From a virus, in the IMG/VR virus record IMGVR_UViG_3300022073_000049, positions 1 to 20,213 of that record: a DNA stretch of 20,213 bases; one strand, 5' to 3'. Below the pieces are notes generated by a model, which had not been told where the DNA came from, did not search any database, and saw nothing but the letters and a program-made list of their open reading frames with translations. The stretch's first letter is position 1. Each line of letters starts with the position of its first letter. A program made the position numbers and the translations under genes. Shown here in pieces: positions 9,833 through 19,824 of this stretch.

Positions 9833-10108
9833 ATGATAGCCGAAGCTGCTGTATTGCGAAACCACACCACTGCATCGCAGTGCGCCAAGATCCTCGCCCG
9901 CCTTCAGGCTGGGAAAACCATCACGCCGCTGGAAGCGCTCGATGAATACGGCGTCGGGCGCCTGGCCGCCCGCGTGGCTGACCTGCGCAATGAAGGCCAT
10001 GTCATCAACTCCAGGCTGATCACCGTCTTCAACCGCGACGGCGCTAAGTGCCGCGTGGCTGAGTATTCCATGACGCAAGGCGATGCCTCGCTGGAAGGTG
10101 CCATGTGA
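9833..10108 (+). CDS. Small HTH protein (HTH_39-like), 91 aa
   Basis: A short DNA-binding protein with one helix-turn-helix (residues ~18-62): CAKILARLQAGKTITPLEALDEYGVGRLAARVADLRNEGHVINSR. The pattern I-L-x-x-L-x-x-G-x-x-I-T-x-x-x-A-x-x-x-x-G-x-x-x-L-x-x-R-I/V-x-D-L-R-x-x-G-x-x-I matches the helix-turn-helix family often found upstream of phage methyltransferases and replication genes. AAGGAG lies nine bases before ATG 9833. Its stop overlaps the GTG start of the methyltransferase gene. It could regulate this operon, with the structured leader just upstream; that is inference. The reverse-strand frame here is a shadow. Confidence 0.8.
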   Translation: MIAEAAVLRNHTTASQCAKILARLQAGKTITPLEALDEYGVGRLAARVADLRNEGHVINSRLITVFNRDGAKCRVAEYSMTQGDASLEGAM

Positions 10109-12309
10109 AGTTCGGCAGCGTATGCAGCGGCATCGAAGCTGCTTCGGTTGCATGGGAACCTATCGGCTGGAAGGCCGCATGGTTCGCCGAGATCGAGCCA
10201 TTCCCCAGCGCCGTACTGGCGCACCGTTTCCCTGAAGTGGAGAACCTTGGCGACATGACCGCTATTGCTAAGCGTGTCCTGACTGGTTCGATTGCAGCAC
10301 CAGATGTTTTGACTGGCGGAACACCCTGCCAAGCCTTTTCCGTCGCCGGCATGCGTGAAGGCCTGAACGACCCGCGCGGCGCCCTCACCATCAAATTCGT
10401 GGAACTAGCCGATGCAATTGACCATGTTCGCGCCCAGCGAGGCGAAGCCGCTTCCATCGTTATCTGGGAAAACGTCCCCGGCGTCCTCTCCGACAAAGGC
10501 AACGCCTTCGGATGCTTTCTTGGCGCGCTGGCTGGGGAGGACTGCGAACTGCAGCCTTCAGGGAAGCGGTGGACGGACGCTGGTTGTGTGTATGGACCCA
10601 AAAGAGCAATCGCGTGGAGGGTTCTTGACGCCCAATATTTCGGCCTGGCCCAACGCCGCCGCCGTGTGTTCGTTGTGGCAAGTGCTCGAGAAGGGTTCGA
10701 TCCCGCATCGGTACTTTTTGAGCGCGAAGGCGTGCGCCGGGATACTCCGCCGCGCCGAGGCGAGGGGCAAGACGCTGCCGCCGGCACTCTCCGAAGCACT
10801 CAAGGCGGCAGTGATGTCGACCACGCCCGGGCAGGACACCTGATCGCTTTCGGCGGGAACAATCAGGCCGGCCCAATCGACGTTGCCACCGCCTGCCGAG
10901 CAAAGGGCGGAACAGGTCACGGCGACTTCGAGAGCGAGACTTTTGTGGTGGCCGGCACGCTCCAGGCCAACGGCAAAGCAGCCGGAAGCGCCACACAGCA
11001 GGATGCGGAAAGCGGCCTGCTGGTGGTGCACGGCACGCAAGACCCAGATGTGCGCCTAGATCAAGCGCACACCCTGGGCCGCAATAACGGCATGGAAAAT
11101 GCGCTGCTCGCCTTCAGCTGCAAGGATCACGGCGAAGATGCAGGACAGATCAGCCCGACGCTACGCGCCATTGGGCATGGAGGCAGCCACGCCAATGCAG
11201 GTGGGCAGGTTGCCGTCTGCGTAACTGGCGACATCGCTCACACGCTGAAGGCTGAAGGCTTCGACGCAAGCGAGGACGGCACAGGGCGCGGACAGCCGAT
11301 TGTTCCGGTCGCCTTCACGCAGAACAGCCGCAGCGAGGTTCGCCAGATCAATGGCGACGGGCAGATCGTTGGAGCGCTTGCCGCAGAGGCAGGAGCTCAG
11401 CAGCAGAACTACCTATCGGTCGGCTCTGCGGTACGCCGCCTGACCCCTACCGAATGCGAGCGACTGCAGGGTTTCCCTGAGATTAGGAAAACATTCACAA
11501 TGTCGGTGTCATTCGATGGAGGCGCCGATGAATGTTCAGGCCATCAAAAGAGCTCTGCGCGTGCGGAAGCAAAAAGTCTCAGGTCGCAAAGCAATGCCTT
11601 GCATGCCGAAGAAAGCGAGTTTCTGTCCTGTGCGAGCACTGCAGAAAGGAGTTTAAGTGCAGACCTGGAAAGCTCAAGCGAACATGTTCTCGTGAGTGTG
11701 CTGATCGACTCAGAGCGGCAGCATCTTCAGATACGCAGTGCAGGAAAGTTGCTCTTGTCTGTGAGCACTGCGGAGCAGAGCGAATGGTGTCACATTCCTA
11801 TCAGTCGCGCAGATTTTGCTCAGTTGATTGCAAGGATGCACATGTTCGAGGAGATCGCCACCCACGCTGGAGGGGAGGCCGAACAGCAGAGCACGATCTG
11901 TTCTACTCATCGGCAGAGTGGAAACGTGCGTGCGCAATTGTCTGGGCGCGAGATAGGCGAACTTGTCAACGATGCGGAGAGGTTCACAAGCGACCTGCGC
12001 GATTGTTTGAAGTTCACCACATCGGCAGTCGAGCAAAGTTCCCAGAGCTACGACTTGAGCCGGAAAACCTTGTTCTCCTGTGTCGCGGCTGTCATCTGTT
12101 CGTGCATTCCAGGGCAAATACAGAGCGGCAGTTCATTCGAAATAAGCATTGAAACGGTCGCCGGGTGGACCCTGATTCCATGGCGCGGAAAGCCAGCTGA
12201 GGAATGCCCTGACGGCCCGCGTTACAAAGCAATCGGCAACAGCTGGGCGGTCCCTGTCGCTCGCTGGGTGGGGGAGCGCGTTCAGCGCGCCGTGGAGGTG
12301 CTGCAATGA
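10105..12309 (+). CDS. C5 cytosine DNA methyltransferase with in-frame 227-codon insert
   Basis: It transfers a methyl group from AdoMet to C5 of cytosine. Motifs in order: I, FGSVCSGIEAASVAW (3-17); IV, GGTPCQAFSVAG with catalytic Cys75; VI, WENVPGV (E122); VIII, AQRRRRVFVVA (182-192); a long target-recognition region (~195-445) made of degenerate repeats; and IX, RRLTPTECERLQGFP ending at residue 458. Motif X (GPRYKAIGNSWAVPVARWVG) comes only after residue 687, because ~227 codons are inserted right after QGFP; the exon-like continuation GWTLIPWRGKPAEECPDG resumes in the same frame. The insert holds an HNH gene in another frame. The start is GTG 10105 (GTGA overlap). Phages use such enzymes for restriction evasion. 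Whether this enzyme is active is uncertain. Confidence 0.85.
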   Translation: MKFGSVCSGIEAASVAWEPIGWKAAWFAEIEPFPSAVLAHRFPEVENLGDMTAIAKRVLTGSIAAPDVLTGGTPCQAFSVAGMREGLNDPRGALTIKFVELADAIDHVRAQRGEAASIVIWENVPGVLSDKGNAFGCFLGALAGEDCELQPSGKRWTDAGCVYGPKRAIAWRVLDAQYFGLAQRRRRVFVVASAREGFDPASVLFEREGVRRDTPPRRGEGQDAAAGTLRSTQGGSDVDHARAGHLIAFGGNNQAGPIDVATACRAKGGTGHGDFESETFVVAGTLQANGKAAGSATQQDAESGLLVVHGTQDPDVRLDQAHTLGRNNGMENALLAFSCKDHGEDAGQISPTLRAIGHGGSHANAGGQVAVCVTGDIAHTLKAEGFDASEDGTGRGQPIVPVAFTQNSRSEVRQINGDGQIVGALAAEAGAQQQNYLSVGSAVRRLTPTECERLQGFPEIRKTFTMSVSFDGGADECSGHQKSSARAEAKSLRSQSNALHAEESEFLSCASTAERSLSADLESSSEHVLVSVLIDSERQHLQIRSAGKLLLSVSTAEQSEWCHIPISRADFAQLIARMHMFEEIATHAGGEAEQQSTICSTHRQSGNVRAQLSGREIGELVNDAERFTSDLRDCLKFTTSAVEQSSQSYDLSRKTLFSCVAAVICSCIPGQIQSGSSFEISIETVAGWTLIPWRGKPAEECPDGPRYKAIGNSWAVPVARWVGERVQRAVEVLQ
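11481..12161 (+). mobile_element. HNH homing-endonuclease insertion inside the methyltransferase gene
   Basis: A segment of 681 nt (boundaries uncertain by a base or two) interrupts the methyltransferase exactly between motif IX (ERLQGFP) and the conserved GWTLIPWRG that normally follows directly. It contains one complete HNH gene with its own GGAGG site, only ~51 nt before it and ~9 nt after it. That leaves too little room for a standard group I intron core outside the gene. The methyltransferase frame runs through all 227 codons with no stop. The segment is AT-richer and uses different codons from its surroundings. I saw no inverted ends. Confidence 0.7.
11532..12152 (+). CDS. HNH homing endonuclease with zinc-finger array, 206 aa
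   Basis: The protein has three Cys-pair zinc modules (C9/C11 with C22/C25; C34/C37 with C52/C56; C77/C80 with C96/C100), like the DNA-binding fingers of phage homing enzymes. A C-terminal HNH nuclease follows: C145-x2-C148, HH 162-163 in LFEVHHIGSRAKFPELRLEP, Asn179, C184-x2-C187-H188 and H192. Such enzymes nick or cut an intron-less or insert-less allele and spread by repair. The start at ATG 11532 has GGAGG nine bases upstream and an in-frame TGA immediately before it. It lies in a different frame from the methyltransferase that encloses it. The CATTC/GAATG pair around the ribosome site and start codon could form a weak hairpin limiting its expression. Confidence 0.85.
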   Translation: MFRPSKELCACGSKKSQVAKQCLACRRKRVSVLCEHCRKEFKCRPGKLKRTCSRECADRLRAAASSDTQCRKVALVCEHCGAERMVSHSYQSRRFCSVDCKDAHVRGDRHPRWRGGRTAEHDLFYSSAEWKRACAIVWARDRRTCQRCGEVHKRPARLFEVHHIGSRAKFPELRLEPENLVLLCRGCHLFVHSRANTERQFIRNKH

Positions 12310-18698: not shown

Positions 18699-19337
18699 AT
18701 GAAGAAGGGAGACGAATCGGCAGCACCCAGGAAGTCAGCGAATAGGGCCCAGGTAGCAAAGCCCGCGAAGAAGATGGGTCGACCGACTGACTATTCTCCA
18801 GAATACGCTGAGCAGGCGAAGAAACTGGCAGTGATGGGGTTTGACGATGAGGATGTTGCGTTCTTCTTCGGTGTAAACCTGCTAGACCTTGCCTTGTGGG
18901 CTGTTAGGCATCCCGACTTCCTCGCGGCAATGTCCCCTGCCGATGAGGAAATTGAAGCCTATCGGTCGAAGCGGCGCGAAAGGGCTGAAAAGAGAAACGC
19001 ATGGAAGCGCAAGGCGATAGCTAGCAGCCCTTCCAAGCGCGTTGAAAACAGTACGAGGGCTAGGATTTACGCGGCGCTGAAGGGTAGAGGCGATGGTGCC
19101 CTCTTCGGCCGGCTCGGTTATAGCGCCGACGCACTTGTCGCTCATATCGAGGCTCAGTTTGCGCCAGGTATGAGCTGGCAGAATTACGGGAAGTGGCATA
19201 TCGACCACAAGAAGCCTGTGGCCCTGTTCGATCAGACCGAAGAAGCGCAATTTCTAGAATGCTGGGCGCTCGATAACCTTCAGCCGCTATGGGCTCTGGA
19301 TAACGCCAAAAAGGGGGCAAGATATGTCGGCTCCTAA
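18699..19337 (+). CDS. HNH endonuclease with terminase-small-like N-terminus, 212 aa
   Basis: Residues ~26-78 (KMGRPTDYSPEYAEQAKKLA, VMGFDDEDVAFFFGVNLLDL) form an HTH like that of the terminase small subunit encoded next door; the YxxxYAxQAKK start of the helix is shared. A charged linker (~83-118) leads to the nuclease part: ARIYAALKGRGDGALFGRLG, then WQNYGKWHIDHKKPVALFDQ with IDH 168-170, then CWALDNLQPLWALDNAKKGA with N193 and N202. This WHIDHxxP...NLQPLWxxDN pattern marks phage HNH proteins near cos or terminase genes, some of which take part in packaging (HK97 gp74 is one known example). GAGG lies eight bases before ATG 18699. Overlaps the terminase gene by 14 bases. Confidence 0.85.
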   Translation: MKKGDESAAPRKSANRAQVAKPAKKMGRPTDYSPEYAEQAKKLAVMGFDDEDVAFFFGVNLLDLALWAVRHPDFLAAMSPADEEIEAYRSKRRERAEKRNAWKRKAIASSPSKRVENSTRARIYAALKGRGDGALFGRLGYSADALVAHIEAQFAPGMSWQNYGKWHIDHKKPVALFDQTEEAQFLECWALDNLQPLWALDNAKKGARYVGS

Positions 19338-19824
19338 AGGGAATCAGTATGCGAAAGGCAACAAGGGCGGTGGACGCCTGAGCACCTACCAAGCAAAGTA
19401 TGCGCAGCAGGCTAAGAAGGCGTGCGAGGCCGGCTTTACCGACAAGGAAATTGCGGAGCTTCTTGGTTGCAATCAGAGCACGCTGTATCGGTGGAAGGCT
19501 GAGCATGAAGAGTTTGCGCAAGCCCTAAAGGTCGGAAAGTGCAAAGCAGACGATCGAGTTGAGCTTTCCCTCTACCATCGCGCGCTCGGCTACAGCCATC
19601 CAGAGGTTGATATCAGGGTGGTCGAAGGTCAGATCGTCCAGACCCCATTGATCAAGCACTACCCGCCGGACACGACTGCCGCGATCTTCTGGCTGAAGAA
19701 CCGCCGCAAGGAAGAGTGGCGCGACAAGGTGGACGTTGACCACGGCATTCAAGAGGACAGCCCGCTCGCGTCGTTGTTCGCCCAGCTGGCCGGCAAGACC
19801 CTGAAGCCAGGGGGTTCTGAATGA
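19324..19824 (+). CDS. terS: Terminase small subunit, 166 aa
   Basis: The DNA-recognition subunit of the packaging motor. The start MSAPKGNQYAKGNKGGGRLS, the HTH YAQQAKKACEAGFTDKEIAELLGCNQSTLYRWKAEHEEF (~25-63), the segment VELSLYHRALGYSHPEVDIR and the C-terminal PPDTTAAIFWLKNRRKEEWRDK are all typical of the small terminase of cos- or pac-type siphoviruses. AAGGGGG lies just upstream of ATG 19324. The stop overlaps the next gene (ATGA), and the terminase large subunit starts 265 bases further on. Confident. Confidence 0.9.
   Translation: MSAPKGNQYAKGNKGGGRLSTYQAKYAQQAKKACEAGFTDKEIAELLGCNQSTLYRWKAEHEEFAQALKVGKCKADDRVELSLYHRALGYSHPEVDIRVVEGQIVQTPLIKHYPPDTTAAIFWLKNRRKEEWRDKVDVDHGIQEDSPLASLFAQLAGKTLKPGGSE

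Follow-up and report, generated by a model that had tools for sequence, protein, structure and literature searches.

A homing endonuclease gene is expected to spare its host gene only by residing in an intron, an intein or an intergenic site, and an HNH gene of the homing type inserted at a conserved motif is typical of phage group I introns. The locus described here resembles such arrangements only in part. Like the intron-encoded and free-standing HNH proteins of phages (I-HmuI, GVE2 HNH), it carries a homing-type HNH enzyme, but no ribozyme accompanies the gene, which sits inside a coding frame that stays open. Like the inteins found in DNA methyltransferases, the insertion is in phase at a conserved motif and is apparently read by ribosomes; unlike them, it has no splicing domain, and its endonuclease, encoded in a different frame, has to be produced on its own.

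The closest described system is the ShiLan domain (Arsenault, Gosselin and Gogarten, 2025), an out-of-frame HNH in mycobacteriophage methylases (PMC11855218, PMC9957025), which was reported from mycobacteriophages only and for which real translation of the insert was left open (PMC11855218). The sequence of phage ShiLan, when checked, places the HNH at +2 within a PF01555 enzyme (gp65). The present locus and the ShiLan domain have in common an HNH placed out of frame, at +2, within the still-open frame of a phage DNA methyltransferase, a compact layout with the HNH start near the 5' end and its stop near the 3' end, a patchy distribution, and the lack of an intron or intein signature. Both HNH proteins have a zinc finger and a GxxNPxWRGG linker; hhalign matches them over these parts only (50 columns), and they are not homologous over their full length. 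The differences are as clear: the host here is a C5 enzyme (PF00145) interrupted at motif IX, whereas the ShiLan host is an N6/N4 enzyme (PF01555) interrupted at a different site, and the two HNH cores belong to different types. The C5 family is also wider, covering GC contents of 36-68% and about 30 diverged lineages, and it offers a cross-lineage test of stop avoidance, copies with a broken HNH and a -10 box, none of which features in the ShiLan paper (PMC11855218). The hidden insertion in Pacc40 gp60 (PMC11855218) is likewise an out-of-frame HNH-like ORF in a phage methylase; compared by description, it involves another methylase family and an uncertain HNH. Judged against the openly licensed PubMed Central literature searched, the C5 family is separate from and broader than the ShiLan domain, with stronger evidence of selection. 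The novelty that an earlier sequence-only reading of this DNA had implied is nevertheless reduced by the 2025 paper (PMC11855218): the kind was already known, and that precedent tempers surprise.

Layout of the interrupted methyltransferase gene

The window, meaning the whole stretch of viral DNA that was analysed (20,213 nucleotides), is a phage replication and recombination region, with genes for SSB, RdgC-like and NinB-like proteins and a Holliday junction resolvase. The features of the locus are as follows.

10105..12309, + strand: C5 cytosine DNA methyltransferase ORF, 734 aa, open across the insert (PF00145, E 2.5e-33)
10105..11478, + strand: methyltransferase 5' part, to motif IX (...ERLQGFP), from alignment with uninterrupted relatives
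11479..12162, + strand: inserted element, 228 methyltransferase-frame codons in place of one codon, net 681 nt, from alignment with relatives
11482..11517, + strand: methyltransferase-frame stretch around KTFTMSVSF (aa 460-471), where the first of the insert's two end strands is predicted (AlphaFold2, low confidence, and alternating hydrophobics in relatives)
11496..11501, + strand: CACAAT, matching the position of the relatives' TANNNT -10-like box; weak here
11518..11522, + strand: GGAGG ribosome-binding site, 9 nt 5' of the HNH ATG (sequence)
11532..12152, + strand: HNH endonuclease gene, 206 aa, ATG start, +2 frame, with a zinc-finger N-terminal part and an HNH core
12133..12162, + strand: methyltransferase-frame SFEISIETVA (aa 677-686), where the insert's last strand is predicted (relatives' alignment and AlphaFold2)
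12163..12309, + strand: methyltransferase 3' part, GWTLIPWRG through motif X to the stop, from alignment with uninterrupted relatives

The ORF begins with GTG (10105) and carries all the C5 motifs in the order I, IV (PCQ), VI (ENV), VIII, IX, X. At the site, uninterrupted relatives have QGFP-D-[DN]-[YH]-T; in the window, 228 residues separate QGFP from GWT, which makes the gene longer by a net 227 codons. The sequence-only reading had put a 681-nt element between QGFP and GWTLIPWRG, and the alignment with uninterrupted relatives returns that length at that place; the complete HNH gene that it saw in another frame, with a GGAGG and a start of its own, holds up as well (11532-12152, offset +2, GGAGG at 11518-11522), as does a methyltransferase frame that runs through the insert without a stop and comes out in phase (10105-12309, 734 aa). 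It was right that little sequence lies outside the HNH gene, although its figures of about 51 and 9 nt become 53 and 10 nt with the boundaries used here. On the matter of a frameshift or stop in independent sequence, which it had raised, the independent assemblies L015 and L016 and the bacterial genome of Massilia sp. TS11 (L106) agree with the window, and a sequencing artefact is thereby ruled out.

Elsewhere in the window, a terminase small subunit-like N-terminal part is fused to an endonuclease VII-like domain (18699-19337), and after it comes another, more complete ORF for a terminase small subunit (19324-19824); this arrangement (18699-19824) is possibly another homing-type insertion in the same phage.

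Could the insert be removed before it burdens the enzyme? The sequence-only reading listed an unusual mini-intron among its options. Spelled out, an unrecognised self-splicing unit comparable to group I introns would take the insert out of the RNA and the HNH would be a passenger. The sharp ends of the insert and the placing of an HNH gene at a conserved motif do recall phage group I introns. However, searches with Rfam introns (group I and II ribozyme cores) gave no match in the window region or in 13 homologous loci, just 53 + 10 nt lie outside the HNH gene in the window and 29 nt precede it in most copies, and a spliced element needs neither phase nor a stop-free frame, in about 30 lineages or after the HNH has broken. 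With no Rfam intron in the 14 loci, and no need for an excised element to avoid stops, such an intron is disfavoured and looks very improbable. Removal at the protein level, by a non-canonical intein, or skipping of the insert by translational bypassing is hardly credible either. An open host frame is indeed what inteins have, but the insert gives no Pfam match to Hint or any other splicing domain, and there is no conserved Cys/Ser start or His-Asn end; bypassing would make the open frame unnecessary.

Relatives at motif IX and the open frame

Scans of viral and genome collections recovered about 30 diverged copies at the same methyltransferase site and in the same relative HNH frame, with GC from 36 to 68%. 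The site reads QGFP, QGYP, QTVP, QNFP, HGFP or QGFT, and the hosts include the bacterial genome of Massilia sp. TS11 (L106), AT-rich phages (GC 0.36-0.45) and distant C5 enzymes. The known copy was the sole clear member among 399 genomes of the Massilia order, so the element is rare in bacterial chromosomes; the site is empty in most of the methyltransferase relatives listed.

Several of these loci are unusual in their own right. L121 (788-3649) and L264 (3-2300) each combine, in one methyltransferase gene, the hidden-HNH element at motif IX with an intein elsewhere. L266 (1200-3761) has permuted methyltransferase motifs, the IX-X region standing ahead of motif I, and an internal stop in its HNH frame. 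At L135 (2803-3729), the QGFP site of a C5 methyltransferase holds an insertion of a different type, HNH_3 plus helix-turn-helix, in the host's own frame and without any splicing domain. Finally, L272 (1956-3977) is a relative of the same HNH family lying out of frame within an N6/N4 methyltransferase (PF01555), directly after the catalytic TSPPYFGLRSY motif and with the host frame open across it, apparently a second host type for the out-of-frame HNH strategy. Because the ShiLan host enzyme and site differ, because the ShiLan HNH shares only the zinc finger and linker, and because L272 sits in an N6/N4 enzyme, the strategy has, on these comparisons, arisen or spread more than once.

How surprising is the open methyltransferase frame? 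The proposal that the window alone proves selection was rejected (P about 0.1-0.25), as 10% of synonymous recodings of its HNH gene with locus codon usage, and 25% of those with its own codons, keep the methyltransferase frame free of stops. The same recoding gives chances of 0.1-0.4 for single copies, and of 0.0004-0.0075 for the AT-rich copy L117. Across 15 diverged lineages, which share ancestry and are thus not fully independent, no methyltransferase-frame stop was observed against 19.0 +/- 3.4 expected, the minimum of 3000 permutations being 8. The same is true of at least 14 copies recovered afterwards. The third frame of the inserts holds 2-30 stops per copy. Among relatives not embedded in C5 methyltransferases, 25 of 27 have 1-7 stops in the corresponding frame, counted mostly over only about 95 codons, or about half the length; L272 is one of the two stop-free exceptions. 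In L264 and L266, the HNH frame itself has stops, and the methyltransferase frame is still open.

These numbers bear on the suggestion that the open frame is a by-product of HNH gene composition, in a methyltransferase that is truncated or dead. The single-copy chances speak for it, and exons that do not overlap another gene also have fewer +1 stops than their permutations, a milder deficit (45 vs 65) that was taken as the baseline. Yet composition would have to account for 0 stops against 19 in 15 lineages, for the AT-rich L117 and for a frame that is open where the HNH is broken, and motif X still follows the insert in phase; a by-product of this kind is improbable. Together, the comparisons indicate that selection holds the methyltransferase frame open across lineages, and since the embedded copies have no stops, even where the HNH is broken, ribosomes presumably pass through the insert.

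Stop-free, in-phase passage is what persists: the amino-acid sequence of the insert in the methyltransferase frame has no detectable conservation above the matched control, nor clearly more than is seen at synonymous sites of ordinary exons. Its column hydropathy departs strongly from the recoding null (z 13.7), and a pairwise test reaches z up to 10, but a non-overlapping control exon of the methyltransferase has a similar column hydropathy signal (z 10.5). With identity-matched pairs, the excess is not significant in either of the two insert bins that hold the most pairs; one bin above them has an uncorrected p = 0.04. The idea that the methyltransferase-frame peptide is conserved as protein was dropped on account of the control exon and the identity-matched pairs. 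In the AlphaFold2 model, at a pLDDT of about 30-65, the insert has an end strand on either side (residues 460-471 and 677-686), and these enclose three more strands and several helices; most copies have an alternating hydrophobic pattern in the end strands. The insert may plausibly form a loop that a small hairpin closes off. As the peptide is unconserved above control and the model of low confidence, it is only assumed that the enzyme tolerates the insert.

Might the peptide have gone further and become a functional domain of the methyltransferase, more than a tolerated loop? The predicted end strands with their beta/alpha core, the departure of hydropathy from the recoding null and the retention of the insert in copies with a broken HNH all lean that way, but the control exon behaves similarly and pairwise conservation does not exceed that of matched controls, which leaves a functional domain unlikely, if compatible with the explanation preferred below. 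The sequence-only reading had offered a 734-aa enzyme with a large overprinted insert and the joint selection of two overlapping proteins as separate options; the two are jointly supported, short of any conservation of the insert peptide beyond the matched control.

The hidden HNH gene: selection, mobility and expression

The HNH protein is modelled by AlphaFold2 with a pLDDT of 86, and the nearest solved structure is the phage GVE2 HNH (5h0m). Its catalytic His and Asn and the zinc ligands (Cys) are invariant. Between the L009 and L105 inserts, differences fall at 26% of HNH third positions and 8-11% of first and second positions; between L124 and L125 the figures are 34% and 17-18%. Since substitutions in the insert cluster at HNH third positions, the HNH is, by this pattern, a protein under coding selection.

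The insert also appears to move relative to its surroundings. The L116 and L119 inserts are about 97% identical in DNA, in methyltransferases with only 73% residue identity in their upstream flanks, where 37-50% of third positions differ. The inserts of the window and L007 have 10 differences in about 700 bases (about 1.4%), and the roughly 50 adjoining bases on each side differ by 16-20%. HNH identity nevertheless correlates with exon identity (rho 0.57), which argues for a mixture of descent and transfer in place of pure homing. Insert mobility and empty sites fit homing into the conserved motif IX sequence.

How is a gene buried in another frame expressed? Almost every copy has exactly 29 nt between QGFP and the HNH start. 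TANNNT stands at -12 to -7 of this start in 10 of the first 17 copies and in 10 of the 14 found after the hypothesis had been formed, and at all other offsets from -40 to -6 in 0-2 copies. The T at -12 is silent for the host, being the third base of its codon, and is present in 11/17 copies against a background of 16% (P about 8e-6, uncorrected for how the position was chosen), several copies have an extended TGn, and the box partly overlaps codons of the alternating hydrophobic residues. TANNNT at -12 is a signal of leaderless genes in bacteria (PMC3160421), and the authors of the ShiLan paper speculated on leaderless initiation (PMC11855218). In most relatives, the HNH is thus probably expressed as a leaderless message from a -10 promoter inside the methyltransferase gene. 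The window copy has a leader 24 nt longer, a weak box (CACAAT) and GGAGG 9 nt before the ATG, and a scan of its insert for consensus promoters and terminators found none; to judge from its sequence, it may be a leadered variant, served by the longer leader with GGAGG.

A probable homing element without splicing

At the level of sequence, the family displays nested frames, a single site used in about 30 lineages, avoidance of stops, coding constraint on the HNH and mobility relative to the flanks. The explanation that we consider probable, with good confidence, is a splicing-free homing element that is translated through as part of its host gene; cleavage and homing, read-through translation, methyltransferase activity and the promoter are its inferred parts. 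The zinc-finger HNH probably recognises the highly conserved DNA that codes for motif IX (QGFP) of C5 methyltransferases. It would cut copies free of the element, and repair would then copy the element in. The host gene would survive because the element's length is a multiple of three and it has no stop in the host frame, for which reason ribosomes would read through, and the resulting methyltransferase would be longer by about 190-230 residues, a bulge between motifs IX and X. Synthesis of the HNH protein would be a separate event that begins at an internal +2-frame start.

A more far-reaching possibility, put forward tentatively, is a widespread class of homing elements without RNA or protein splicing, in which one stretch of DNA may serve as endonuclease gene, as stop-free and perhaps folding insertion of the host protein and, at its 5' end, where it overlaps host codons, as -10 promoter of a leaderless message. 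The insertion would outlive a dead endonuclease, as in L264 and L266, and lead to a new protein domain. If true, the out-of-frame sequence of a parasite has a path to becoming a new protein domain.

The roughly 30 copies, including the AT-rich and the two broken-endonuclease ones, make read-through directly testable, and the TANNNT data give a concrete promoter hypothesis for the expression of the hidden gene. The family suggests another strategy for homing genes, host-frame readability, and with it a source of overprinted protein segments.
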